NCBI GenBank assembly: GCA_001600635.1 | Contig: BCKL01000003.1 | Coordinates: 186,001 to 250,000, forward strand | From: Leucosporidium creatinivorum | Taxonomy: Eukaryota; Basidiomycota; Microbotryomycetes; Leucosporidiales; Leucosporidiaceae | Reading direction: 5' to 3' | DNA: 64,000 nucleotides | Part shown: positions 23,831 through 56,642 of the stretch, piece after piece | Numbering within the stretch: the first letter of the stretch is position 1 | Layout of the letters: each line of letters opens with the position of its first letter | Translations under genes and position numbers: made by a program | The notes under the pieces: model-generated | What the model saw: the letters and a program-made list of their open reading frames with translations, nothing else | The model's database searches: none | What the model was told of the DNA's origin: nothing

Positions 23831-24245
23831 TCATGGATGGGAGGTTGGCGCGACGTAGCTCGGCTGTAGTGGTGTTGTACGAATATCCGCAACCGCATCA
23901 TTGTCGATTGGTGCCGTGGAATGCGGGTGAAGGTCCGTCAGCCTTGTTTGCTTGCTGCTGTCTGCCCTCGGCGCCGCTTTCGTCCTCTCACCTGGCGGTC
24001 GGGCATCTCTGGGCTGTCTACGCTCTTGCTGGATTGCTGGCTTTGCTGAGCCCTCCCCTGTTTGTGCATGCGTGGTGAACGGTGTAAGCCGTGGGAAGCG
24101 AGAAACGGGCTCTCGGCGCCTCGGCGCCTCGGCTTCCCACCCCTTCACAACGCTCGCAAAGCCCTCGCTCACTTTCCCGCTCGTCACAGCACTCTAGTAC
24201 ATCGCTTCTCTCCTCGACTGTTCTGTAGCGCTGTAGAGGGCTGTT
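23831..24245. other. intergenic, no gene seen
   Basis: About 415 bp between the YggS-family stop codon and inverted arm A. It contains palindromic CTCGGCGCCTCGGCGCC-type words near 24111-24130 and no convincing ORF. Confidence 0.5.
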
Positions 24246-24258
24246 TCGGCGCCCCTCG

Positions 24259-24354
24259 AAAGTGTTTCCTGACCTCGGGACCAGGAAAGCGGAGGAAAGT
24301 GGAGGAAAGTGGTGGAAAGTGAGAGAGAGCGACGAGGAAAGTCAGGAAACTCTT
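24259..24354. mobile_element. 96-bp MITE-like element with inverted ends, in arm A
   Basis: Left end AAAGTGTTTCCTGAC (24259-24273) and right end GTCAGGAAACTCTT (24341-24354) are inverted matches with one mismatch. Between them lies a purine-rich GGAAAGTGGAGGAAAGTGG tract. A mirror copy sits in arm B near 32025-32120. The same end sequence recurs elsewhere in the window, most clearly at 59883-59972. Confidence 0.5.
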
Positions 24355-25826
24355 GCTGAGAAGGGAGAAAAGTGAATTGAGTGCTGTTTTGCTCTTTAGG
24401 GACAAGGCTCTGCGTTGTCGAGATGTGGCAGCCTGGTGAGATGACGAAGCAGCTCGGCGCCGAGATGGCCTCGTGCAGCTCGAACGAGTGAGCTCGGGAG
24501 CTCCTCCTCTTGCATGGCCGCTCTCGAAGCTGGGTTCTCACCTCACCACGAGCGATGCGTACTCAGCTACAGTATCTTGCGCCGTTCAACTGTTTCCTGA
24601 GTTCTGGCCAGGTTGAAACCCACCCTGGGTTGAAACCCGGGTTGGAACCACCCTCGCTGGTTTCGACCTCGAGGCGGGCTCTGTAGGTCGTTATTGCCGA
24701 GTGTGAGGTGGGAGTCGGCAAAAATGACCGCTCTCCATGCGCCAGGGATGAAGCAAAAGTATGAGAAGGTACAGCAGAGCAGTAAAGCCGCTGAGAGACG
24801 AGCTCGGCGCCGAAGTGCGGCGGGTTCNTTGCTCTGTCGCTGCTTCCAAAGCTTGATCGCTCAGAGCAGAGGTCTGCAGCTGGTGGTTGATACAGTATGA
24901 ATGTCCACTCGAAGCGCTGAGGTATCCCGATCTAACGGCTCGTGTCCAGCGCCGCTCGGTGAGACTGGCGCCGAGAGAGGCGGCTCGAGAAGTCAAGGTG
25001 CAGTATATGTACCTCTCCATCTTCCGCCGTGACTAGAGTAGCTTTAGAGACCCTCGGGCATTGCTCGGCTAGTCCGANACACGACATCTCTGCACACGCC
25101 TAATTTGTTTCTTGGGTTGGCCCAGTGGCTAACGACCATCCTTTCGGAGAGAAATGTGGATTAGCAATTCATTATTTGAGGTAAGCTGCAAGCCTAGGTC
25201 AGCGGGCAAGATGACCAGATGTCACGCAGAGGTGCAGCGGGGGCGTTGANGGGTNTATGATACTTCCAGTGATGCAACACAGATTTACATCGCCAGCTAG
25301 CGACCTACGAGGTGACNGACGGCCAGNCNCGTCGCCGAGGTGGATGCTCGGCGCTCGCTTGAAAGGGCTTGCGCAGCTCGAGTGCTCTCGCAGTATGGTA
25401 GCTACAAGCGCCCCGTCATTACTGGACCTATCTAAAATCCCTGCACTATCGTCAGCCTCCAATGTGGTACAGTGAAGCCTGACAAGCCAGCCGGTCGAGA
25501 GGCGTAGTCAGCCGAGCTTCAAACAGGCAGAGTTTCAAAGGCTAGCAGGGCTCCACCTAAGCTCGGATGATGTACTGATAGTGTTTCTGATCCGATCTGA
25601 GTAATATGAGAGCCCGAAGCGACCTGCACAGCGCGCTGTAGAAGCCAAGGCCGGACCTCGGCGCTGAGATCCCACCCCGCTCTCAACCGGCTCAGACAGC
25701 CTACAGCCGCCCTGGGAGGGTCCGGGGTCGCAAAAGGGATGTCATACATTAATCTGAGAAGCTCTGGGTACCGCTAGTGGCCGGCAAAAGGGAAAATGAG
25801 AGCGCCGAAGGGCAAAAGAGAGGGTA

Positions 25827-25917
25827 TGCCTGATACAGGGATCGAACCTGTGATCTTCTCCGTACGTTACAGAGCGTACAATGTAAAGGAAACGTCATAA
25901 ACCGCGCAGACTCAGGC
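25827..25917 (-). tRNA. tRNA-Val(UAC)-like, D-arm eroded (probable pseudogene)
   Basis: Read on the minus strand it has a near-complete acceptor stem (GCCTGA with TCAGGC), a perfect T-arm (ACAGG TTCGATC CCTGT) and an anticodon arm with UAC interrupted by an intron of about 19 nt. Compared with the copy at 30462-30553 it lacks two bases after the acceptor stem and the D-stem no longer pairs. It lies at the inner end of arm A. A functional variant is not excluded. Confidence 0.55.
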
Positions 25918-26270
25918 ATTTGGAGCGATACTGGGGCGCAGTAGCGTCTCCCGCCCTCCTGCCCGCTCCTCTGCTTGCTGTAGCTGGGTAGACGTGCAAG
26001 CGTATTCCACACGTGCTCTGATACACCTTGCTCTCCTTGCAGCAAGCCGAGCCTCGAGCGACGCGCCCTGGACGAAGCCGAGCGCCGAGCGCCGAGCATG
26101 GCCCCACGTCTCTCTGAGGCAAGGTCAGCGGGGGCGGTGGGCTCATGCAGTGCAGCAAATACACACTCTAGCGTCCTCCATCGGCTGCTAACACCAGTGC
26201 AGGCATCAGCAACCCTGGGCCGCCTTGTGCAGGCAACGCCGAACGAGCCCCACCGAGCCGAGCTCAGCTC

Positions 26271-30419: not shown

Positions 30420-32133
30420 AGGACTCGGGGGACGGTACTGCACGCGGTATCGCTCCAAATGCCTGATTAGTCTAGCGGTTTATGACGTTTCCTTTACATC
30501 GTACGCTCTGTAACGCCCGGAAAAGGTCACAGGTTCGACCCCTGTATTAGGCAGATCTCTCTTTTGCCCTTCGGCGCTCTCATTTTCCCTTTTGCCGGCC
30601 ACTAGCGGTACCCAGAGCTTCTCGGATTGATGTACAACATCTCTTTTGCCACCCCGGACCCCCCAACGGCGGCTGTAGGCTGTCTGAGCCGGCCGAGAGC
30701 GGGGTGGGATCTCAGCGCCGAGGTCCGGCCTTGGCTTCTACAGCGCGCTGTGCAGGTCGCTTCGGGCTCTCATATTACTCAGATCGGATCAGAAACACTA
30801 TCAGTACATCATCCGAGCTTAGGTGGAGCCCTGCTAGCCTTTGAAACTCTGCCTGTTTGAAGCTCGGCTGACTACGCCTCTCGACCGGCTGGCTTGTCAG
30901 GCTTCACTGTACCACAGTGGAGGCTGACGATAGTGCAGGGATTTTAGATAGGTCCAGTAATGACGGGGCGCTTGTAGCTACCATACTGCGAGAGCACTCG
31001 AGCTGCGCAAGCCCTTTCAAGCGAGCGCCGAGCATCCACCTCGGCGACGNGNCTGGCCGTCNGTCACCTCGTAGGTCGCTAGCTGGCGATCTAAATCTGC
31101 GTTGCATCACTGGAAGTATCATANACCCNTCAACGCCCCCGCTGCACCTCTGCGTGACATCTGGTCATCTTGCCCGCTGACCTAGGCTTGCAGCTTACCT
31201 CAAATAATGAATTGCTAATCCACATTTCTCTCCGAAAGGATGGTCGTTAGCCACTGGGCCAACCCAAGAAACAAATTAGGCGTGTGCAGAGATGTCGTGT
31301 NTCGGACTAGCCGAGCAATGCCCGAGGGTCTCTAAAGCTACTCTAGTCACGGCGGAAGATGGAGAGGTACATATACTGCACCTTGACTTCTCGAGCCGCC
31401 TCTCTCGGCGCCAGTCTCACCGAGCGGCGCTGGACACGAGCCGTTAGAACGGGATACCTCAGCGCTTCGAGTCGACATTCATACTGCATCAACCACCAGC
31501 TGCAGACCTCTGCTCTGAGCGATCAAGCTTTGGAAGCAGCGACAGAGCAANGAACCCGCCGCACTTCGGCGCCGAGCTCGTCTCTCAGCGGCTTTACTGC
31601 TCTGCTGTACCTTCTCATACTTTTGCTTCATCCCTGGCGCATGGAGAGCGGTCATTTTTGCCGACTCCCACCTCACACTCGGCAATAACGACCTACAGAG
31701 CCCGCCTCGAGGTCGAAACCAGCGAGGGTGGTTCCAACCCGGGTTTCAACCCAGGGTGGGTTTCAACCTGGCCAGAACTCAGGAAACAGTTGAACGGCGC
31801 AAGATACTGTAGCTGAGTACGCATCGCTCGTGGTGAGGTGAGAACCCAGCTTCGAGAGCGGCCATGCAAGAGGAGGAGCTCCCGAGCTCACTCGTTCGAG
31901 CTGCACGAGGCCATCTCGGCGCCGAGCTGCTTCGTCATCTCACCAGGCTGCCACATCTCGACAACGCAGAGCCTTGTCCCTAAAGAGCAAAACAGCACTC
32001 AATTCACTTTTCTCCCTTCTCAGCAAGAGTTTCCTGACTTTCCTCGTCGCTCTCTCTCACTTTCCACCACTTTCCTCCACTTTCCTCCGCTTTCCTGGTC
32101 CCGAGGTCAGGAAACACTTTTGAGGGGCACCGA
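30420..32133 (+). repeat. inverted arm B (1.7 kb), mirror of arm A
   Basis: Reverse complement of arm A with Ns at 31050, 31052, 31062, 31124, 31129, 31301 and 31551, each mirroring an arm A N. Beyond about 30555 toward the tRNA the two arms gain indels and substitutions, and past 30420 and 32133 they become unrelated. The outer end carries CAGGAAACACTTTTGAGGGGC, the inverse of the arm A outer end. No protein gene is recognised inside. Confidence 0.9.
30462..30553 (+). tRNA. tRNA-Val(UAC), intron-containing
   Basis: All arms fold. The acceptor stem is GCCTGAT with ATTAGGC (7 bp, one G-U). The D-arm is GTCT AGCGGTTTA TGAC. The anticodon stem is TTTCC with GGAAA, and the loop carries UAC after U33. 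The T-arm is ACAGG TTCGACC CCTGT. An intron of about 19 nt follows position 37, and its TGTAA can pair with the anticodon region, as in canonical pre-tRNAs. UAC reads the valine codon GUA. It lies at the inner end of arm B; the matching copy in arm A is degraded. Confidence 0.85.
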
Positions 32134-32339
32134 ATGGGTCGAGTACAGCGACCTGTAGGACTATAGCACAGGAGAGGTACGCTTGAGAGCCGTGTTGCGT
32201 GGACGAGGGCGCGAGAGGCTCGGTGGCTCTGCAAAGGGCGCGCGAAGCCGAGGCGCCGAGAACCTGTCTCTCACCAGCACGCACCTCTCGCTCGCTCCAG
32301 CATTATATATACGAAGCAGCAGTATCGCTTCCAGCACGC

Positions 32340-34348: not shown

Positions 34349-37300
34349 ATGGACGACTGGGTAGACAGCGCCAACAAAGCAGCCGAGCCGCTGCCCGTCC
34401 AAGGCTTCGAGCCCCACGACGGAGCCGTCTACGGTCATCAGCCAGACGGCGACGAGGTGAGTGGTGGGCTCCTACGCTGGCGACATATAGCTGCTGCTCC
34501 GTGCTCTGCTGTAGCACGCAGGCCTAGTCTTGTGCGCCCTACAGCCGCCAGCAGCGCTATTGACACCTCGTTCCCCGGCCTCTCGCAGACCGACGACTCG
34601 CCCATCTTCTCTCTGGGGCGAGTCCAATTCGCTCTTCCAAGTCCCCTCTTCTCCCTTTCCTGCACGGCCAATATCCTCCTCCTCTGCCTCACCGGCGTAC
34701 CCCGTCCCTCGCCCAACTCGACTTCGGGCGGCCAACCACCTCAGCTCATTCGCATCGACCTCGACCGACCCACCGAGGTGGATAACATCGACCTCGCCAT
34801 CCCTCCGCCAGTGCAGACTCGAGATGGTCCCGTCAGCACCCTCCACCGCGTTCACGCCGACCCGTCTGGTCGGCACGTCATTGTCACCACTACCACGGGA
34901 GACAACTTCTACATCTTCGTTGGAGCTCTACCAGCAGGAAGCACTACCTCGACCGGTCGAAGAGCCAAGCCGCTGGCTCGGCTAAAGGGAGCTGTCATCG
35001 ACGCCGTCTCCTGGTCTCCTTCGGCCGCCTCCTCCTCGACCGCCTCCTTCTCTACACGCGAGATCCTCCTCGGAACTGCAACAGGCCAAATCCTCGAGAC
35101 GACCCTCCTCGATCCTACCCTCGCCGAAACCTCCTCCTTCTCCCTCCCCGTTCCAGGCCGGTCGGGCGCCCCCGAGCGCTACGTCAAGCACCTGCACACG
35201 CTTGCAGAGCGGCAGTCGATTACTGGACTGAGGTGCGAGACGTGGGGAAAGAGGGCAGCCATCATCGCCACTACCAAGACGAGAATCTACCAGTTCATCG
35301 GCACGCTCAGCACTCGGAGAGAGGAGGAAGGAGGGATGCTCGAACCCATGTTTCAGCAATACACGTCGAACGAGGTACAGCCGAGTACGTCCCACCTTTA
35401 CGATCCTATGAGACTGCTTGCTGACCTTTCACACTCGCAGAATCGCTCGAATTGCCAGGCGAGCCGCTCAACTCGGAGCTGCACTTCTTCGCGCCGTTAC
35501 GGACAGACTCAAAGGGCGTTGTCACCGGGATCACACTACCGAAGAGTGTAGCATGGCTAACTGGTGAGTTTTCTCGCTGATGTCCCTCGTCAGCATCTTC
35601 TGATCCTCCCTCCTCGCAGGTCCCGGCATCTACCACGGCACTCTCTCCTTCCCACCGCCCTCTTCCGACCACCTCCACCCGGGCGACGGCATCATCGAAT
35701 CAGCTTCTCTCGTCCCCTACCCAGCCGAACCGTCCTCGCCTACCCACGTCTCCTCCTCTTACGACAAGTTCCACGCTGGGCATGAGGACGACGAAGGGCG
35801 AACGGAGATGCCCATCAGCATGGCGTTGACCGAGTGGCACTTTGTCTTGCTGTACGAGGATAAGATTCGAGTGATTGGCCTACTGAGCGACAAGGTGGTG
35901 TATGAGGACCCGCTGGATCTGGTGAGCTCCCGCTCCTTAGCGAGCATTGCAAACGCCCGCTGACTCTTCGCTCTCACTCGCAGCCACCAGGCGTTCGCCC
36001 TCTCAAGCTCTCGACCGATCCTCTTCGCAAGACATGCTGGATGCACACCGACCAGTCCATCTTTGAGCTCGTCATCAAGGACGAGGACCGCGACGTTTGG
36101 AAGATCTACCTCGGCCGCTCGAATTGGGAGCTGGCTCGTCGCTACGCCAAGGCGAGCCGCGTTATGTCAAAAGCTCACTATAAGCATCGCTGACACTCCT
36201 GCTACCGCTCTCAGACTCCACGGCAACGCGATCAAGTGCTCGCCGCCGAGGCCGACGCCTACTTTGCGATGGGCCGCTACATCCAGTCGGCGCAGTGCTA
36301 CGCACAGTCGTCCAAGAGCTTCGAGGAGGTTGTCTTGCGCTTCGTCGACAAGAATGAACGAGATGCTCTGCGCTACTATCTCGTGGCCAAGCTCGAGCGA
36401 TTGCGCCGAAGTGTGAGTTGGGCTCTCCCGTTTCGCTCCGCGACACGAGCTGACCGACGCGCAACTTGCAGGACCTCACTCAACGGATGATGCTCGCTAC
36501 CTGGCTCGTCGAGATCTACCTCTCCAAGATCAACCAGCTCGAGGATATCGCAGCAGCAGAGCGGTCGCCGGACGACGTCGAGAACCTCAAGGTGGAGAAG
36601 AGCTTACTCGAGGATGAGATGCGACAATTCTTGTCAACCTATAAGGTATGCACAGTGTCTTTGTGACGAGCGAGCAGTCGCTGACCCCTTCGGCTCTGCA
36701 GGAAAACCTCGACCGCAAGACCGTCTTCGACTTGCTCGACCGACATGGCAGGGACGAGATGACTCTGTACTACGCCTCAATCGTCGGCGATCACGAGCGC
36801 AACATCACCCACTGGGTCTTCGAGGCCAATTGGACGAAGGCTCTCGAGGCGCTCAACAAGCAGGTGAGTAGTGGACTCACCTCGGTCGAGCTCTCTCGCT
36901 GACTCTCTGTAACGCTTTACAGGAGGGCCTCGATCTCTACTACCGCTTCGCTCCCGTCCTCATCCGCCATGCACCCAAAGAGACGGTAGAGACCTTCATG
37001 CGCCAGCCGAGCCTCGACGTCCGGCGCCTCATCCCCGCCGTCTCGGCGCCTCAACGTCGCTCCCCTACCACTCCCAACGATACCCGCTCGTCGTTCGAGC
37101 ACGTCATCAAATACCTCCAGTACTCGATTCTCCAGCTGCAGAACACGGACGCCTCGGTCCACAATACCCTCCTCACCCTTTTCGCCACCGACTCGAGCGC
37201 CGACGAAGCCGACTTCCTCCACTTCCTCGCCGTCAGCCCCAACAACCCCGAGACGGGCGATCCTTACTACGACCTCGACTACGCTCTCCGTCTCTGCCGC

Positions 37301-38406
37301 GCCAACAAGCGAGTGCAGGCCTGCGTGCTCATCTACTCCAAGATGGGCCTCTTCGAGTCGAGCGTCGACTTGGCGCTGGAGCACGACGACCTCGAGCTCG
37401 CCAAGCTCAACGCCGACAAGCCCGAGGATGACGATCTTCTGCGGAAGAAGCTGTGGCTCAAGATCGCTCGCTACGTTGTCGGCCAGAAGAACGATATCAA
37501 GACGTGAGTTTCAGCCGTCGACCTCCTTCGGCGTTCGCTGACTTTCTCTTCCTTCGCTACAGGGCCATGCGCTTCCTCGAGTCGACCGATCTACTCAAGA
37601 TCGAGGACATCCTCCCCTTCTTCCCCGACTTTGTGGTCATCGACGACTTCAAGGACGAGATCTGCTCGGCGCTCGAGGGCTACTCGGCGCACATCGAGCG
37701 GCTCAAGGACGACATGGACGAGGCGACTCGGAGCGCAGAGGCCATCAAGAGCGATATTGCCGATTTGCGCAATCGCTTTGTCGTCGTCGATGCGAGCGAG
37801 AAGTGCGGGAGCTGTGGGCTGCCTCTCCTCACGAGGCAGTTCTACGTCTTCCCGTGCCAGCACTCGTTCCACGCGGATTGTCTCATCAACGAGGCGAGTC
37901 TGTCTTGGTGTTGGTTCCCGCTCGCGAGTTTAGCTGATTGAGCCGACTCGCCCTCTCAGGTCACCAAACATCTCTCCCCGACCGCCCTTCGTCGCATGCT
38001 CGACCTCCAATCCCAACTTTCCCCTTCCTCCGCACCCTCTCGTCCCCATCGCCGCAACCTCGTCGAGGACACTCAAACCCAAGGCCTCAAGCTCGCCGCC
38101 GCCTCGGTCCAAGGACTCGACCAACTCAGGAAGCTCGTCCTCCCCGACGCTCTCCTCGGCATCATCGGCGGCGCCATCCCAGGCAAGCAGCTCATGGGCC
38201 GCGTGGGAGGTCCGTTCGGCGGAGGAGGCGATGGCGTTGTGCCCGTGGCGGGCGCGAACCTCAGCGCCAGCGCGAAGAAGGAGGCTGGGGAGAAGCAGGG
38301 ATTGCGGGAGGCATTGGACGAGCTGTTGGCAAGCAGCTGTGTGCTGTGCGAGGGAGCTATTACTAGTGTGGATCGTGGGTTTGTCGACGAAGGCGAGGAA
38401 ATGTAG
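34349..38406 (+). CDS. VPS18: VPS18/Pep3, HOPS/CORVET core subunit with RING-H2
   Basis: The class C vacuolar sorting protein Vps18/Pep3, shared core of the HOPS and CORVET tethers that drive endosome and vacuole fusion. The start MDDWVDSANKAAEPLPVQGF is followed by a Pep3-type beta-propeller (FSLGRVQFALPSPLFSLSC, ILLGTATGQILETTLLDP, SMALTEWHFVLLYEDKIRVI). The alpha-solenoid follows (DVWKIYLGRSNWELARRYAK, ALRYYLVAKLERL, RHGRDEMTLYYASIVGDHER, YALRLCRANKRVQACVLIYS). The C-terminal RING-H2 reads CGSCGLPLLTRQFYVFPCQH, SFHADCLINE and ends SSCVLCEGAITSVDRGFVDE. About ten introns. Domain order and length match the family. Confidence 0.93.
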
Positions 38407-38670
38407 ACGCCGACCTTTCGCGCTCATCGTTCGGCGCCGACAAAATGTACTGCGAGCGGCGAAGAGCTTCACTTGGGCTCTCGGAGAGGGCTGTTCGAGC
38501 TGGTCTCACCGCGTTCAGCCGCTTGGAGCGGGCCTCTACGCACTCGCAATAGCTTCCCGAAGCCTCGGCACGTGCGAAGCGCCGACGCTCTTCACGTCGA
38601 CGAGAACACCTTGTTACACGGATCGGGAGGTCGTACGGAGATTAAAGATATCGTTCGGTGTCGGCGGTCG

Positions 38671-38989
38671 CTACGAGGGAGTCCAAGCGATCTGCAGGAG
38701 TTTGAGAGGCGGGAGTCAGCCCGGCTCGTCTTCACCGAGAACACTCAACAGCAGAGCTGCTAGGTAGCGGAATCGCTCGACAGAACGGCAACTCACTCGT
38801 TCGCTGGAGCCGAACGTCAACCTGAAGTGTCGACCGTATCGGTGGAGGTAGACGAGCTTGGGAAGGAGAGTGTACTGGCGAGGAGGGGCATAGGTCAGCG
38901 CGGGCGAGGGAGCACATTGTAGTGCATGAGAGCAGTATCAGCTCTGTAACACTTACGCGGTGGCTGCGGTGCTGTACTGTAAACCCCAT
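38671..38989 (-). CDS. 43-residue spliced microprotein, tandem copy 2
   Basis: Three exons (38989-38957, 38874-38797, 38691-38671) sum to 132 nt and encode 43 residues: MGFTVQHRSHR, YTLLPKLVYLHRYGRHFR, LTFGSSER, IAWTPS. It is a paralogue of the gene at 39210-39569: same length, 16 of 43 positions identical including LTFG, H22, G25 and AW.P at the end, and most other changes conservative. One intron of copy 1 (before LTFG) is absent here. The protein is basic, has no cysteine and no clear membrane segment. I do not recognise the family; a small subunit of a larger organellar complex is one guess. Matched length and frame across independent splice sites make chance unlikely. Confidence 0.68.
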
Positions 38990-39209
38990 GTCTTGAGAGC
39001 AGATGCTGGAAGAAGGGAGAGAGACGCGAGGGGGCTGTGCACGAACCTCGGCGATGAAGGAGGCTTCGTCTCTGAGCTCGGTCCAGCCTTCCCACGAAAG
39101 TCCTTCGCACCCGCCACCCTCGCTCTACACTCACTAATGTCTAAGGACTTCGTGTATCTAGAATTGAAACAACAGGCGGCGCCAGACTCTCTCCTTCAAC
39201 TACATTTCT

Positions 39210-39569
39210 TTACTTGGGTTGCCATGCGACCTGTGAGCACGCGAAGAGTCAGTGACAGTCAGAAGAGCTCCTGCAAAGATCCCACCTTGTCACCGGGTCC
39301 GAACGTGAGCTGCGATGAGCAGAGAGTCAGCGCCGAGTGCGAACTTGAGCTGGCGGCTGCTCACCTTCCAACGCTTGCCCCACTTGTGCACCTTGAGCAC
39401 GTAAGGAATGATGGTCCAACTGTAATTGTGTGCTTTGAGTCAGCTGATTGGCCGCGGCAAAGCCCTCCAAGCCAGTGCGAGCACAACGCCCGAACCAGGG
39501 CGAAGGTGTAATAGAGGCTGTTAGGAAGCAAGCTCACGAATGCGGGTGTGATTGGACGCTGAAGGGCAT
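39210..39569 (-). CDS. 43-residue spliced microprotein, tandem copy 1
   Basis: Four exons (39569-39538, 39419-39365, 39309-39286, 39230-39210) sum to 132 nt. They encode MPFSVQSHPHS, WTIIPYVLKVHKWGKRWK, LTFGPGDK and VAWQPK, then TAA. Every junction is GT-AG and phase-consistent. The protein is basic and aromatic-rich (four Trp) and is too short to appear in ordinary ORF lists. The neighbouring copy (38671-38989) has the same architecture and ending. Downstream lies the VPS18 3' end, upstream inverted arm C. No family assigned. It could be a mitochondrial or ribosome-associated small subunit, but nothing here proves that. Confidence 0.7.
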
Positions 39570-39983
39570 GTCGGTAGGTCGTGTGGTGGGAGGGTGAAAA
39601 GCGACCTTGAGGGAAGGAAATGACCGCGCTAGCTGGCGGCGACCTCGATGACGTTCAGACCAGCGCTGGAAAGTGCATCTCATCTCGAGGTGACGATTCC
39701 ACCGAGAGCGAGGATGGGTTCGGGTGCGCGTTGGCGTTCTGCGTATAAAGTTGCACGACCTGGAGACGATGAGAAGTTCGGCGACTTGAAGAGCTCGGCG
39801 CAGGCTGGAACGCAAAATTGTCGGAGGGAGCTGCGAGGGAGACTTGAGGCCAATGAGATCTTGTTACATACCTCGACGCCGTGAGGTGGGCTGGACGCTG
39901 ATCTCTTACAACTGCGTCGTTCCGCTCAGACGTCGATCCCTCGACCGAGCTCCCTCCCTTCCGAGTTCCGCCCGCTTAACCCC

Positions 39984-41234
39984 CTACCCCAACACCACAG
40001 GAGCCGGCGCTGAATTGTGTTGACTCCAAAGAGTGATTCCGGTAACCACTCCACCGACCACGAGGGCAAACACGATGAGGATGAGCGCCAATCGTTTCCC
40101 GCTGTACGGCGCGATGGCCTTTGGAGTCGTGCTCTCGCCCCAAGCACCTTCCTCCTCGTCGGGCTTGAGAAGAGGGCGAGATTGATCCTCTTGGAGCTGA
40201 GGGTCCTCGGGTGGAGGAGTGACTGTCCAGGTTGGGAGTGAGTAGGCGAAGGGCTGCGAGCGGTTTGTGACATTCAATACCAGTCTGCTGCTTGGAGGGG
40301 AAACAGATAAGACAGCTCACATTCAGCCAGCTGCCTGCCTGGCTTGCAGGTGCCAAAGCGCTCATCTTGTCGAGGAAGACGAGGCCCGTTTCGCCAGCCT
40401 CGGCGATGCTGCAAGGTGGAAATGTCGGTCAGCGAGATAGCGACGGGTCACCGGGAGACGTACTAGGCTTCCTTGATGAAAGAGAATGGGCATGTAGTCG
40501 ACTCCGAGGTTGCTGTGGAGGTCTGGAGCGAGCGAGATCAGTTCGGCGCTTCGGCGATGCCCGCGGTGTTCGATGCTGCTCACCTGGCCAAGACGAGCAC
40601 CGCGANTGACACCNGCATTGATAAGCTCGATGCAGTCCTTCATCAGCTTTCCTGCCCTCGCCAATTGCTGCTTGATCTCCTCCGTCTCGCTCGTGAGGAC
40701 GAAAGCTCGACCGCCGCCGCCACGAAGGTGAGGAGCACGAGTGTTGAGAGTACGGAGGATGGGAGGCAGGGGAGAGAAAGTTTTGGAGATCCTCTTCTTG
40801 AGCGTTTCGAGATCCTCGGCGAGCTTGTTGGTGGTAGCGCAGCGAGACGAAGTGGACGAGGGAACGGCGAGGAGTCAATCGTACAGCACAGCAAGCTCCC
40901 TGAGGTCGTCCTTAACATTGACTAGCTCGTGTGTGACTCTCTCCAACTGTTGAGGAACACCATGAGTCCCATGTCTGCTGTTCGCACCCCACTCGGCGCT
41001 GGCTCGACTCGGCGGACTCACCTCGAAGCGGAAACCGTCTACATCAAGTGCAGTACGACCACTCTGTTTCTCTTCCTTCTTCTGCTGCATGAGCGTCTGC
41101 TGGCCGCTCTGTTGAGCATCTGCACCTGCATCTTGCTGCTCCGCGGGGTAGCGAGGGAGCGTTTCGGCGAGGGAAGCGAGAGAGGTGNTCCTAGNGTGTN
41201 GAGGNGGAGGATCGTAGGCTGGAGAGGTGTACAT
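39984..41234 (-). CDS. predicted C-tail-anchored protein, copy in arm C
   Basis: Mirror copy of the gene at 53804-55054 (coordinates sum to 95038). The predicted protein starts MYTSPAYDP, has a charged helical middle (ERVTHELVNVKDDLRELAVL), a Pro-rich stretch with TPPPEDPQLQEDQSRPLL, and a single membrane segment near the end, RLALILIVFALVVGGVVTG, followed by about a dozen residues. The last residues differ from the other copy: ITLWSQHNSAPAPVVLG here, LVLWSQHNYAPEPIVTA there. This shows two real loci rather than one locus placed twice. Six N bases fall in the coding exons at the same relative sites in both copies. Family not recognised; the topology suggests a tail-anchored ER, Golgi or mitochondrial membrane protein. 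It lacks a clear SNARE core. Confidence 0.65.
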
Positions 41235-41725
41235 GTCGGTACTGGAGCTTGTGGTGAAGCTGGCGCTGTGGTCGAAAGAGGGCGGAGGAAGACAACCCGC
41301 GTCTCTCTTGAGTCCTCGTCGTCTCTCCTCGCCGCCGTGCCCCTAAGCGCCCCACATTCTGCACCGAGTTTCCGGCCAACACACGTGCTCGGCGCTGCAG
41401 AGGAGTGTAGTCGGACCTACATTCCGCAAGACCGCTGCAGTATACTACAGCAGCGAGCTTCGCCGAAAAATCGAGTCCAGCTCACTTCTCGGCGGCGCTC
41501 CTCGACGACCAGTCTCGAGCAAAAGAGCTCTGAGTTGCATGGCAAAGCGCTATTGGGGGGTACTAACAGGGACGGATGGGGTATTCGAACTACACATCGA
41601 GGAAGAGCGGGCGACATCGTGAAGCAAAAGGAGAGAAAGCGAAGGGGAAGCGGGAAGGGGAACGAACGCCGAGCAGGCAAGAGCAGCTCTACTGGTTGCC
41701 GTTACCGCGCGCCGCCGCTCCAACC
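40010..41725 (-). repeat. inverted arm C (1.7 kb), mirror of arm D
   Basis: Reverse complement of about 53313-55030. All six Ns (40606, 40614, 41188, 41195, 41200, 41205) mirror those of arm D with a constant coordinate sum of 95038. It holds the tail-anchored gene and its promoter. At its inner end (41691-41725) it also carries a decayed match to the last codons of the SNF2/RING gene, which is intact only next to arm D. That suggests arm D is the source and arm C the copy. Confidence 0.88.
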
Positions 41726-43023
41726 CCGGAACGGGCGACTATGCTCGCCACAGCGGCGCCGAGATTCCGAGAAAGCCTTCCAGAAGATCAAGGAGGACAA
41801 GCTGTATCTTGTACATTCGACTAGGGGACACTATCAGTTCCAGTGGTAGTCAGATAAGCTCGCTGAGCGACTTAGACAGCACCTCAGCTCCCCGCAAAGT
41901 GTTTCCTGAGATGCGAAGGAAAGTCTAGTGGCTTATCACGTTTCCTTAGGCAAGCGGAAAGAGGCGAGAGCTTGTGTCGAGGTACAGAGAGGGTACCGAG
42001 GCAACAGAAGAATGAACAGTAGTAGCTGTTGACCACCAGACTTGCCCTCGACGTACATGCAAGCAGAACGGCCGGACCGAGCAGCTCGCTCGGCGCTGTA
42101 GCCTCTGCGAGGAACTCGAAGGCTTTCCAGGTGAGCTGGTGGTCTCTGACCCCACAGGACTCATCTGCGTACGCTGATGAATAGGTTCGAGGGGTAGAGA
42201 CTTCATCGGAAGCTTTTTAAAGCACGTCAAAGCCTCAGCTTCGGCGACGGCAGCGGGAGCGCTGGCGTGCCTCAGGCAACGGTGTCTGGTGCAGGGAAGC
42301 TGCGTGGCTGGCAGACGAGAGATCTTGTACTCGCTACTCTTGACCTGTAGCACGACATCGCCCTGCCGCTCAACGTTGAAGCGCATCGGCGGAAGCTGGG
42401 AGCGCCTTGACCCCCTTTCGCCGAGACTTCCTGTATCGCACTTGCTGCACCCCAGCGTTTGCGCAACGGTGCAGATTCGCCTGTATAGCTGTAATCTAGT
42501 CACCGCCTTGGCCGCAAACCTCATTTCTGCAGGCGAGTAGGCGAGGATGGGCTACAGAGACTCGCCTCATTTGACTCTACGATACTCCTCTACGCGCTCA
42601 CGCTGAGACGCGCCTCGAAAGCGGAGAGTGAGCTGCAGCTTCTCGACGAGTAAGTCAGCTCGAGAGGTGTGGCGGCTTCTGGCTCTTGCTCCCACCATCT
42701 CTTCTGCCTCGCGGCTTCTATACGACTACAGGAGGGAGCATCTAGCACCTTTCGACTGTCGACCTACAGCTTCCTTCACCGTGGACTATCCCACCCCCAG
42801 CGACCCTCTCGCCTTCCCCCTCGCTTCCTCGACCTCTTCCGCCCCCGTCGCCCTCTCTCCCGCCTACCCGCTCCCGCCCAACCACCGCCCAGCAACGCTG
42901 AAAATCTCGACCGCTTCTTGGCTGCAGAAGAATAGCCCTACAGCTTCCACTCACGCTTCCCCTGGCCCAGAGGAGCAGTTGCACCACCACCTCCCGCACC
43001 TCGCATCACATCCCGACGACTTG
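41726..43023. other. 1.3-kb intergenic stretch with short repeat and possible gene remnants
   Basis: It contains the AAAGTGTTTCCTGAG motif and the tRNA-Val-like fragment (41896-41950, listed separately). A minus-strand open frame over 41946-42524 includes MRFNVERQGDVVLQVKSSEY (about 42390-42320), which faintly recalls the start of a BTB domain but goes no further. A plus-strand ORF from 42628 runs in frame into the YTA7 start region. It is probably 5' leader, since it includes a GACTACAG-type splice acceptor near 42730. No confident gene. Confidence 0.4.
41896..41950 (+). repeat. AAAGTGTTTCCTGA motif joined to a tRNA-Val 5'-half-like fragment
   Basis: AAAGTGTTTCCTGAG (41896-41910) is followed by GGAAAGTCTAGTGGCTTATC and ACGTTTCCTTAGG. 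Bases 41922-41947 match the D-arm and anticodon-stem part of the tRNA-Val at 30462 with three mismatches over the first 26 bases, then diverge before the anticodon. A shorter relative is at 60232-60276. Confidence 0.5.
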
Positions 43024-51400: not shown

Positions 51401-53348
51401 TCAGGCCGTCTTCAACAAGTCCGTACACTCTCGCCGTGCTCGCTCGCCACCAGTACTGATCTCGGCACCCCTTCGCAGGTACCTCAAGGAGGGCACGGTG
51501 CTCAAGAACTACGCTCACGTCCTCGTCATGCTGCTCCGCCTCCGTCAAGGTTCGTTTCTGCTCCTCAGACGACCTGTTGAATTCGGCTTACGCGTCTCGC
51601 TCTTCGCACAGTCTGCTTCCACCCTTGCTTGATCGGTAAGTCTTTGCTCGCTCGACTTCCTCCTCTGCGGCGCCGAAACGCTGACCCTCTCCCTCTCGCT
51701 CGTTCAACAGCCGAGGGTTACGAGGCTCTCGCCAACGAGAACAAGAAGGAGCTCGAGAACGCGACCGAGCTGCAGCGCGCCATCGATGTTCTCAAGCAGC
51801 CGGCCGTCGACAAGATTCGCGAGCAACGCTTGGAGCTGGCCGTCGAGCGTTGCAAGATCGAGAAGGAGGTTCGTCCTGCTCGCTCTCTCTTCTCCTCGCT
51901 AGCAAGCGCTGACTCGACACACTCGCCGGCTCATTAGGGCGGAGATGTCCAGTTCGATGGCGACGACTGCCCCATCTGCATGACGCCCGTCTCGGAGGAT
52001 GAGAAGGGAGGATTCGTCACCTCGTGCCAGCACGTCTTCTGCCGCACCTGCATCGACGAGGTCATCGCCAAGGACCAAGTCGAGGACCACGACGACGACC
52101 CCAAGGCCATCAAGTACAAGGCCGATCAGCGCCCCTGCCCCAAGTAAGTCGTCACCCATCGCCCTTCGCTCCTCGCTGTACTACCGATGCCGACCTTTCT
52201 CTCGTCTCCCTCTACAGCTGCCGTCAGCCCATCTCCAAGACGCTCACCTTCTCCCTCGGCGCCTTTGAGCCCACCGACGAGGAGCTCAGCAAGGCCACCG
52301 GCACGCCCATGGAGCTCGACGACGACATCGACGACGACGGCGACCTGAAGGACTTTATCGCCAAGGACGACGACATGGACGAGGACGAGGAGTACGGCAA
52401 GCCTTCCTCCAAGAAGGTCAAGCAGCCTAACCGCCGCATCATCCAGGACTCGGACGACGAGAGCGAGGCCGAGGAGGAGAAGCCCAGCAGGCAGGACAAG
52501 GGCAAGGGCAAGGAGAAAGCCGGACCAGTCGAGCTGCCGGATTGGATGGAGAAGCAGGAGCCGTCGACCAAGATGAAGTGGGCGTTGGCCGAGGTGCAGC
52601 GGTTGGACGCCGAGTTCCCCGACGACAAGATCATCATCATCTCGTCCTTCACCACCGCCCTCGACTTGATGGCCGACATGCTCTTCCAAGCCGACTTCAA
52701 GGTCACTCGCTACCAGGGAGACATGACGAGGAAGGAGAGGGACGACTCGGTCAAGGTCTTGAAGAAGAGCAAGAAGTGCAAGATCATGCTTAGTGAGTGG
52801 TAGATGTCACTTTCACAGGACCTGAAGCTGATTCTCTCCTCTCATCGCAGTGTCGCTCAAGTGCGGAGGAGTCGGACTCAACCTCACCCGCGCCAACCGT
52901 GTCATCTCGCTCGGCGAGTTCTTGTCTCGAGAACGCTTCGCCGACTGGCGCTGACCGATCTCGCTTACTAGACCTCGCCTGGTCCAACGCCGTCGAGAGT
53001 CAGGCTTTCGACCGCACGCACCGCATCGGCCAGTTGAAGGAGGTTCAGATTGGTGAGCGCTCGTGCTCGCTGTCGCTGCCTCTCTCCCTCGAAGCTGACC
53101 TGTCCCTTCTCCAGACCGCTTGACCATCCAGAACACGGTCGAGCAGCGTATCGGAGAGATGCAGAACCGCAAGCAGGGACTCGCCGATGCTGCCTTCGGA
53201 GAGGGAGGAGGAGCCAGTACGCTTCTCCTTGCTTCCGTAGCTCAGCGGTCGCTAACTCGTTGGTACTACTACAGAGATCGGGAGGATAACAGTTGACGAC
53301 CTCGCCCATCTCTTTGGAGTGCCGGCGCGAGGCAACGGCAACCAGTAG
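48418..53348 (+). CDS. ULS1: ULS1/RIS1-like SNF2 ATPase with embedded RING finger
   Basis: A SWI2/SNF2 DNA translocase carrying a RING finger between its two helicase lobes, the architecture of Uls1, Rad5, Rad16 and HLTF. Lobe 1: ISLMAHQLMGVAWMCEQENS, GGILGDEMGLGKTIQTIATM (motif I), LIIAPVALLEQWKDEI, and motif II DEAQNIRNRSTK spliced across an intron. Next come WCLTGTPVTNSLSD and CMMRRKKDSQLDGKEL. The RING is CPICMTPVSEDEKGGFVTSC, QHVFCRTCIDEV and CPKCRQPI. Lobe 2: IIIISSFTTALDLMADML, SLKCGGVGLNLTRANRVI, SQAFDRTHRIGQLKEV. An N-terminal GGLIVLGDDEDD looks like a SUMO-interacting motif, and DEAQ with that motif favours the Uls1 (SUMO-targeted) group over Rad5. No HIRAN domain was seen. About 20 introns. 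It ends next to arm D. Confidence 0.85.
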
Positions 53349-55030
53349 AGCTGCTCTTGCCTGCTCGGCGTTCGCTCCCGTTCTCGCTTCCCCCTACGCT
53401 TCCTCCCCTTTTGCTTCTCGATGTCGCCCGCTCCTCCTCGATGTGTAGTTCGAATACCCCATCCGTCCCTGTTAGTACCCCCCAATAGCGCTTTGCCATG
53501 CAACTCAGAGCTCTTTTGCTCGAGACTGGTCGTCGAGGAGCGCCGCCGAGAAGTGAGCTGGACTCGATTTTTCGGCGAAGCTCGCTGCTGTAGTATACTG
53601 CAGCGGTCTTGCGGAATGTAGGTCCGACTACACTCCTCTGCAGCGCCGAGCACGTGTGTTGGCCGGAAACTCGGTGCAGAATGTGGGGCGCTTAGGGGCA
53701 CGGCGGCGAGGAGAGACGACGAGGACTCAAGAGAGACGCGGGTTGTCTTCCTCCGCCCTCTTTCGACCACAGCGCCAGCTTCACCACAAGCTCCAGTACC
53801 GACATGTACACCTCTCCAGCCTACGATCCTCCNCCTCNACACNCTAGGANCACCTCTCTCGCTTCCCTCGCCGAAACGCTCCCTCGCTACCCCGCGGAGC
53901 AGCAAGATGCAGGTGCAGATGCTCAACAGAGCGGCCAGCAGACGCTCATGCAGCAGAAGAAGGAAGAGAAACAGAGTGGTCGTACTGCACTTGATGTAGA
54001 CGGTTTCCGCTTCGAGGTGAGTCCGCCGAGTCGAGCCAGCGCCGAGTGGGGTGCGAACAGCAGACATGGGACTCATGGTGTTCCTCAACAGTTGGAGAGA
54101 GTCACACACGAGCTAGTCAATGTCAAGGACGACCTCAGGGAGCTTGCTGTGCTGTACGATCGACTCCTCGCCGTTCCCTCGTCCACTTCGTCTCGCTGCG
54201 CTACCACCAACAAGCTCGCCGAGGATCTCGAAACGCTCAAGAAGAGGATCTCCAAAACTTTCTCTCCCCTGCCTCCCATCCTCCGTACTCTCAACACTCG
54301 TGCTCCTCACCTTCGTGGCGGCGGCGGTCGAGCTTTCGTCCTCACGAGCGAGACGGAGGAGATCAAGCAGCAATCGGCGAGGGCAGGAAAGCTGATGAAG
54401 GACTGCATCGAGCTTATCAATGCNGGTGTCANTCGCGGTGCTCGTCTTGGCCAGGTGAGCAGCATCGAACACCGCGGGCATCGCCGAAGCGCCGAACTGA
54501 TCTCGCTCGCTCCAGACCTCCACAGCAACCTCGGAGTCGACTACATGCCCATTCTCTTTCATCAAGGAAGCCTAGTACGTCTCCCGGTGACCCGTCGCTA
54601 TCTCGCTGACCGACATTTCCACCTTGCAGCATCGCCGAGGCTGGCGAAACGGGCCTCGTCTTCCTCGACAAGATGAGCGCTTTGGCACCTGCAAGCCAGG
54701 CAGGCAGCTGGCTGAATGTGAGCTGTCTTATCTGTTTCCCCTCCAAGCAGCAGACTGGTATTGAATGTCACAAACCGCTCGCAGCCCTTCGCCTACTCAC
54801 TCCCAACCTGGACAGTCACTCCTCCACCCGAGGACCCTCAGCTCCAAGAGGATCAATCTCGCCCTCTTCTCAAGCCCGACGAGGAGGAAGGTGCTTGGGG
54901 CGAGAGCACGACTCCAAAGGCCCTCGCGCCGTACAGCGGGAAACGATTGGCGCTCATTCTCATCGTGTTTGCCCTCGTGGTCGGCGGAGTGGTCACCGGA
55001 CTAGTCCTATGGAGTCAACATAACTACGCG
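53313..55030 (+). repeat. inverted arm D (1.7 kb), mirror of arm C
   Basis: Its Ns (53833, 53838, 53843, 53850, 54424, 54432) mirror arm C with a constant sum of 95038. Homology starts inside the last codons of the SNF2/RING gene and ends in the last exon of the tail-anchored gene, where the two copies diverge. Only a few substitutions were seen in the core. Confidence 0.88.
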
Positions 55031-55054
55031 CCGGAGCCTATTGTGACGGCGTAG
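53804..55054 (+). CDS. predicted C-tail-anchored protein, copy in arm D
   Basis: Five exons (53804-54016, 54092-54454, 54516-54574, 54630-54717, 54785-55054) sum to 993 nt, giving 330 residues in a single frame. Segments: MYTSPAYDP, a Gln/Lys-rich region (AQQSGQQTLMQQKKEEKQSG), a long predicted helix (LERVTHELVNVKDDLRELAV), a second charged helix (TSETEEIKQQSARAGKLMKD), a Pro-rich spacer (WTVTPPPEDPQLQEDQSRPL) and one membrane segment (KRLALILIVFALVVGGVVTG) near the C-terminus. Charge suggests the bulk faces the cytosol. I do not recognise the family. It follows the SNF2/RING gene by about 455 bp, and its inverted copy is at 39984-41234. Confidence 0.68.
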
Positions 55055-56642
55055 GGAGAAGAAGGGAAGGGAGGGACAGGCAGGAGGTGAGGGCCCGGGG
55101 GGACGCTCGGTCGAAGGAATCCAGCAAGGCGGCGCATCTGTAGGGCTTCGGCGGTGGCAAGAATACATGCAGATATATTATGCAACACAATCGGATGTCT
55201 TCCAGTCGAAGTTCTCGGATGCACTGAGGCAGCTGATCTGCGCCGAGCTTTCGCCGAGCTCTATAATCTTCTCGGAGCCTGGAGTCACCCTCCTGCTGAT
55301 GTACACACCAGTAGACGCCGCAGACGTGACATAGCTATCGCTACTACTCCTCCCGACCTCCGCGCCCTCGCTGCACCTCTGCACGACCTCTCATCCTCTG
55401 CCCGCCCGCCCAAGGAAAAGCGACAACCCACTATACCTCCTTCGGATCTCAGGAAACACTTCGAGGTGCGCTGGCAAGCTATCTCCGTCGCTCGCCGAGC
55501 AGTATAAGAGGTAGCTGACAGTGTTAGTGTCACTCAGTCGAATGGACAAGCTGCTTGATGCACTCCTTGTCCCGCTAGAAGGGGTCCTCGGCGCCGCTCT
55601 CGCCGAGCACTCTCCGGCGCCAGCTGTGGTGAAGCTGTCACCTCTACTTTTCTCTGCGAGGCTAAGCTCAAGCCACACTATATGAGCAGCAGACTGGACA
55701 GGGGGAAGGCTCAGAACGTCCTCTGAAACGCCGGAGGGAGCTTCGGAACCAGATCGGCGCCGAGCTCCTTCGCTCGCATCAAGTCTCGCTCCGTCTGCCA
55801 CAGCTGCTCTTACTCGCTGTGGAGCTTAGTCAGCACGTTGGAGGATGTATCGCGGCTGCTGTACTTCAGCAGAGAGCTCAGGTCACCTTACAAGCCCTCT
55901 TCTCCCCGCTCGGCTTTCGCTCGGCTTTTTTTCTCCCTCTCGAAATCCCCAGGATGGCGTTTCGGTCAGGAAACACTTTGAAGGGGGGGGAAGATGTAGG
56001 GTATTGGACGTCTTTGGCGTGCATGCTGCCAGAAAGAGGCATCAGCTTCCCAAGGCTCTCAGCGCAGCTCGCGTGAGCCCCTTCCTCGTCGTCGCCGAGC
56101 TCGAGCTCTCAGTGCCGGCGGGCCGCATCCTCCAGTGCGTTCCCGCTGCACAAGAGTGAAGAGACTCCTAGTACTGTGAGCCGAGCTGTATGGGATGATG
56201 AGCATCACGAGGAGCGTAGGCAAGGTCGGAGCTTGGAGAGAAGGGAAGGGGGATGATGGAGACCGCCGACATTAATCCAAGTCTAGCAGGCAGACGGGAT
56301 GTCACGGGGCGAAGCCTGTAACAATGTAGCGAGGACGGCTCCGCTGCAGAGCATCGCTCGACCCTTCCCGCCAGCTCGTCCGCGCCAAAGCAAGAGCCCC
56401 TCGGCGCTCTGAGAGCCGAGAGCCAGCTGGGTTTTGTTTCCTGAGAAGAAGCTGAGTTTGGGGGGTGGGCTCTCGAGTGATATGGTTGCGAGTGAAGGTG
56501 GGAGAGGCGAGCTACTTGGATTGCCACGTCTTTCCCAGCTCTCGTCGTCGACCTCGACCTCTCTCGGCGGGCGAAAGTAAGCGAGAGGGACAAAAAGCCG
56601 AGCGCTTCGGCATTGTCCTCCATCTGCGCTGCGAAGCTACGG
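55055..56642. other. 1.6-kb gene-poor stretch with repeat motifs
   Basis: One open frame of 117 codons (55154-55507, +) reads ADLRRAFAELYNLLGAWSHP and ends in VRWQAISVARRAV. It has no recognised domain and overlaps a CAGGAAACACTT repeat motif (55449-55464), so I do not call it a gene. A second motif copy is at 55966-55980 and a partial one at 56432-56445. Several CTCGGCGCCG palindromes are present near 55589 and 55753. Confidence 0.4.

Follow-up and report, generated by a model that had tools for sequence, protein, structure and literature searches.

Programs such as getorf and sORFfinder scan frames without interruptions, and would not predict a protein whose codons are divided among exons of 21-78 nt. 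Conserved sORFs of 80 residues or less have been described in fungi (Mat-Sharani and Firdaus-Raih 2019, PMC7394265), and the new predictions of that study were made with these two programs. The locus analysed here lies in a window of 64,000 nt (the whole stretch of Leucosporidium creatinivorum DNA under study) and carries two adjacent minus-strand spliced gene models of 43 codons each. Like those fungal sORFs (PMC7394265), their products are small, overlooked by standard annotation and recognized by conservation; unlike the new getorf and sORFfinder predictions, they are divided among exons of only 21-78 nt.

The products were also compared with three other known systems. The WW domain has ~40 residues, two Trp about 20-23 apart and a W-x-x-P motif. 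The likeness to that domain lies in a length of ~40 residues, aromatic content and a tail of the form G...aromatic...W..P, whereas the differences are that no Pfam family was matched up to E 10, that W40 is the only invariant Trp and that the tail reads W-x-P and not W-x-x-P. The PH domain has about 100 residues, with seven strands and a C-terminal helix. Its first strands offer a hydrophobic strand, a basic turn and a [WF]-x-L strand for comparison, but the present products end at 43 residues, with no supported 3' extension and no Pfam match. Cytochrome c oxidase 7C/8-like short subunits are tiny, conserved and membrane-spanning; they resemble the pair in size and, weakly, at the start of copy 1. 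They span the membrane, whereas the products of the pair have GRAVY values of -0.54 and -0.51 and no long apolar run by eye.

Gene models and their surroundings

Both were rebuilt from the sequence as gene models. Copy 1 occupies window positions 39569-39210 and copy 2 positions 38989-38671, with the following exons and introns:

39538..39569, minus strand: copy 1 exon 1, M1 to the first two bases of codon 11 (32 nt)
39537-39420, minus strand: copy 1 intron 1
39365..39419, minus strand: copy 1 exon 2, third base of codon 11 through residue 29 (55 nt)
39364-39310, minus strand: copy 1 intron 2, absent from copy 2
39286..39309, minus strand: copy 1 exon 3, LTFGPGDK, residues 30-37 (24 nt)
39285-39231, minus strand: copy 1 intron 3
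39210..39230, minus strand: copy 1 exon 4, VAWQPK and stop (21 nt)
38957..38989, minus strand: copy 2 exon 1, residues 1-11 (33 nt)
38956-38875, minus strand: copy 2 intron 1
38797..38874, minus strand: copy 2 exon 2, residues 12-37 (78 nt)
38796-38692, minus strand: copy 2 intron 2
38671..38691, minus strand: copy 2 exon 3, IAWTPS and stop (21 nt)

All five introns are of the GT..AG type and measure 55-118 nt. The preliminary description had proposed two adjacent minus-strand genes of tiny exons encoding 43 residues each, four exons in one and three in the other, with the intron before LTFG missing in copy 2. The rebuilt models agree with it throughout, and spliced alignment with either protein as query returned the same exon edges (below). 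A detail beyond that description is that the last intron of each copy falls at the codon boundary preceding residue 38, with identical site and phase. The first introns differ by 1 nt in position, being in phase 2 within codon 11 in copy 1 and in phase 0 after codon 11 in copy 2. Either copy 2 has lost the intron before LTFG or copy 1 has acquired it. Upstream of M1 the in-frame stretches of the two copies have no evident likeness by eye except a common D before M, and M1 is thus the likely start codon in both predicted genes.

The two copies lie on the same strand, with 220 bp from the copy 1 stop to the copy 2 ATG, and might form one transcription unit, a two-cistron mRNA whose products would work jointly, perhaps as a heterodimer. 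Such an arrangement has a precedent in several mushroom-forming species, where up to 8% of transcribed genes are reported as polycistronic (PMC4503453). That source concerns Agaricomycetes and probably not this lineage. Judged by eye, a separate pyrimidine-rich leader precedes each of the two ATGs, and both have G at -3. Although the best placed of the alternatives, a single transcription unit is considered unlikely, and separate genes are preferred.

On one flank, in convergent orientation to the pair, is a VPS18 gene (Pep3_Vps18, E 1.2e-44, frame 34349-35551, plus strand), one exon of which gave no match in a PDB search. The gene on the other flank is on the minus strand, ends near 39984 and has a hydrophobic segment at its C-terminus; three of its frames were without a Pfam family. 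These neighbours offer no functional clue. The GC content is near 60%.

Two separate inverted duplications of 1.7 kb are present in the window. The first (~98% identity) joins 40004-41723 and 53314-55034, with its edge at 39982/55056 from another query; it takes in the minus-strand gene that lies upstream of copy 1 but does not reach the microprotein genes. A 98-nt inverted match of 78.6% between 41897-41993 and 55365-55461 is separate from it. The second (97.7% identity) joins 24245-25953 and 30426-32134. In each duplication the two arms carry single N bases at mirrored positions, and all 26 N of the window fall within these two pairs; they may represent unresolved consensus between near-identical copies. 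Inside the arm 30426-32134 lies a tRNA gene (30460-30554, plus strand, 93-95 nt, Rfam tRNA 52.4 bits), which probably contains an intron and for which ARAGORN gave no clear anticodon. The other arm, 24245-25953, yielded no tRNA call.

Search for relatives

Homology searches agreed with the earlier impression that no recognized family is involved. Neither protein matched a Pfam family or, by sequence, a PDB chain up to E 10, and NCBIfam and PHROGs (two-member table) gave no family up to the same limit. A two-row profile matched only two PDB entries, antibody light chains with E 0.73 and 0.93, which were taken as chance. Among viral contigs, 16 stretches were returned for the whole alignment and 67 for the exon-2-to-3 part, none of them confirmed. 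Among GTDB contigs there were 31 stretches, one of which was confirmed (L030, E 1e-5, 46% over 24 residues). This bacterial stretch partly overlaps the end of a 277-residue frame; its 24 residues lie outside all 11 listed frames of at least 40 residues, and it was also taken as chance.

Within the 27.7-Mb genome (63 contigs) the exon-1 pattern M-x-F-[ST]-V-Q-x3-H had two matches, the two copies themselves, and its reversed control had none; G-basic-x-aromatic patterns matched one copy each and nothing else. Being drawn from the copies, these patterns bound close paralogues only. Protein searches of the same genome, with E up to 0.001 and up to 10, returned no third paralogue and were insensitive, neither copy having found its sister. 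No description of such a pair was met among the titles and abstract openings listed in the literature searches, whose coverage leaves out most subscription journals. As far as these tools reach, the two would be an unrecognized pair of a known kind, namely conserved small proteins escaping annotation.

These searches bear on whether the products could be microProteins in the plant sense, that is, single-domain derivatives, here a three-stranded sheet of WW-like or PH-like kind, that compete with a larger parent protein. The positions G25, [WF]28, W40 and P42 are loosely like the WW spacing, and [VL]-[LV]...[KR]-x-[WF]-[KR]-L is like the first strands of a PH domain. Such a derivation is nevertheless improbable: neither protein had a Pfam family or PDB chain up to E 10, the profile reached nothing in the PDB beyond the two light chains, and two protein and three pattern searches of the genome yielded no larger parent, with the same insensitivity of the protein searches to the sister copy.

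Likeness of the two copies

A gapless alignment of the two proteins has identical residues at 16 of 43 columns (M1, F3, V5, Q6, H10, T13, P16, H22, G25, L30, T31, F32, G33, A39, W40 and P42), the number given in the preliminary description. In a single pairwise comparison 31 of 42 positions were identical or similar, with no gaps (E 1e-15). The ungapped BLOSUM62 score was 112, against a mean of -45, a standard deviation of 14 and a maximum of 28 for 100,000 shuffles of one protein.

The models were further examined by a spliced-alignment routine which was blind to the starts, stops and splice sites of the models and allowed GT..YAG introns of ~40-200 nt in any phase, at a fixed penalty and without gaps. 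Protein 1 aligned to the copy 2 region along a path that begins at the ATG, uses the junctions 38956/38875 and 38796/38692 and stops directly before TAG (score 96). Protein 2 aligned to the copy 1 region from the ATG through the junctions 39537/39420, 39364/39310 and 39285/39231 and ended before TAA (score 88). The scan covered 264 kb, made up of the window plus 200 kb of other sequence from the 27.7-Mb genome (528 one-kb bins, both strands), and its next-best places scored 31 with protein 1 as query and 41 with protein 2. The value of 96 comes from a separate scan of 38401-39230; the bin ranking for protein 1 masks copy 2, the same 1-kb bin holding an alternative copy 1 end (192). Permuted versions of protein 1 over the copy 2 region reached at most 37 (n=2000), compared with the observed 96. 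A Gumbel P of 0.001 for copy 1 by protein 2 was derived by fitting moments to bin maxima that scatter widely; it is much weaker than rank or permutation and was not relied on. Based on these comparisons, the two are homologous spliced gene models of 43 residues each, and the claim that their likeness is hard to get by chance withstood the 100,000 shuffles, the 2000 permutations and the 264-kb scan.

The motif CTGAC, which resembles a branch site, occurs in 5/5 introns, 21-28 nt from the 3' end:

39439..39443, minus strand: branch-site-like CTGAC, copy 1 intron 1
39326..39330, minus strand: branch-site-like CTGAC, copy 1 intron 2
39248..39252, minus strand: branch-site-like CTGAC, copy 1 intron 3, with a second CTGAC 10 nt further upstream
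38894..38898, minus strand: branch-site-like CTGAC, copy 2 intron 1
38715..38719, minus strand: branch-site-like CTGAC, copy 2 intron 2

In the background, 164 of the 3360 YAG trinucleotides of the window have CTGAC 12-45 nt upstream; its presence in all five introns then has a probability of ~3 in 10 million, if the introns are independent. CTGAC was also seen by eye ahead of several acceptors in a phenylalanine ammonia-lyase gene of the same genome. One exon of a phenylalanine ammonia-lyase of this genome had 1t6j and 1y2m as its best PDB matches (E 1.5e-55), close and not identical; these two entries are the Rhodotorula toruloides enzyme. Together with the GC content, this match is consistent with a lineage of basidiomycete yeasts; a search for 5.8S rRNA gave no hit.

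Between the copies, identical bases occupy 23/43 first, 27/43 second and 14/43 third codon positions, and pN is 0.42 and pS 0.80 (paralogues only). With pS above 0.75 the synonymous sites are saturated, which points to an old duplication and leaves no finite dN/dS to quote. A repeat search found no repeat common to both copies, only one 14-nt family with both members outside exons, and blastn of 38400-39800 within the window returned the self-match only; the likeness of the copies therefore does not come from recent duplication. By these comparisons the pair goes back to an old tandem duplication and seems to have been maintained by purifying selection. What has been kept despite synonymous saturation is the protein pattern, the length, the start, the stop and one intron site. 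Among the marks of a conserved smORF or microprotein are a separate reading frame for a product of fewer than 100 residues and protein-level selection; the first was found in both gene models and the second in the 31/42 positives and in pN against pS, values for paralogues only with saturated synonymous sites.

A donor-like GT overlaps each stop (CCAA|GTAAAG and CCTC|GTAGCG) at the same position and phase, so the 43-mers could be the first part of longer proteins in which a further intron skips the stop. However, any codon ending in G before TAA or TAG creates a GT of this kind, the highest-scoring pair of 3' extensions had a score of 12 (equalled by 35% of 200 shuffled controls), and both spliced alignments end directly before a stop; longer products are accordingly considered improbable, and complete proteins of 43 residues are preferred. 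That splice sites were simply chosen so that unrelated noncoding stretches resemble each other is scarcely credible: the freedom of splice choice is wide, GT and AG being common, and both models were first picked by a reader who saw both copies, but spliced alignment returned the models whichever protein served as query, with nulls far below the observed scores, and the branch-site-like motifs and the codon-position pattern argue against it as well.

Predicted products and proposed role

Both predicted products are basic (computed pI 10.39 and 11.38, charge 5.8 each) and neither contains Cys. No signal peptide or membrane span is apparent by eye in either of them. Over residues 13-24 the hydrophobic moment is higher for a helix (0.42/0.35 in the two copies) than for a strand (0.13/0.20), and over residues 27-32 it is higher for a strand (1.13/1.04) than for a helix (0.34/0.38). 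Residues 26-33 of copy 2 are ambiguous, the helix moment (0.53) being above the strand moment (0.49). After residues 27-32 come a G-x-x-[DE]-[KR] turn and then a [VI]-A-W segment of ambiguous moment, the helix/strand values for residues 36-42 being near equal (0.36/0.40 and 0.46/0.49 in the two copies). The pattern suggests a short amphipathic helix at about residues 13-24, in which T13 would be the N-cap, P16 would lie in the first turn and G25 would be the C-cap. Less surely, a β-hairpin may follow, with strands at about 27-32 and 37-41 and a turn at 33-36.

A single-sequence structure model of low confidence was obtained for a fragment of copy 2 consisting of the 26 exon-2 residues and six read through, without the last exon. 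It has a helix over residues 14-32 with a mean pLDDT of 69.2, the block means being 72, 82, 58 and 48. The model supports the helix and counts against the first strand of the hairpin (27-32).

Taken together, it is probable that the locus holds two spliced genes of an old tandem duplication whose products have a small, basic, Cys-free intracellular fold. The 1-nt difference in the position of intron 1 counts against this reading. A docking step stands apart from that judgement. The kept aromatic and aliphatic positions W/F28, L30, F32, V/I38 and W40, with a basic face, might dock the products onto a larger acidic partner, either a protein complex or RNA. The two copies would then be accessory subunits or adaptors that have split partners or conditions between them. 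This role as docking accessory subunits is put forward tentatively, as the most economical mechanism.

It is possible, and equally tentative, that the pair represents an unnamed family of one fungal lineage, kept in tandem since before synonymous saturation, with a small disulphide-free fold that serves as an unrecognized subunit of a core complex. With 43 codons spread over exons of 21-78 nt, such a family is easily missed by standard gene finding. The tandem pair suggests a cheap finder that works without transcripts, namely spliced alignment between neighbours with the splice sites not supplied. If confirmed by RNA and orthologues, the pair would stand for a class of conserved genes missed both by single-frame sORF scans and by length cut-offs, the proteins of which have fewer than 50 residues and are built from several tiny exons.
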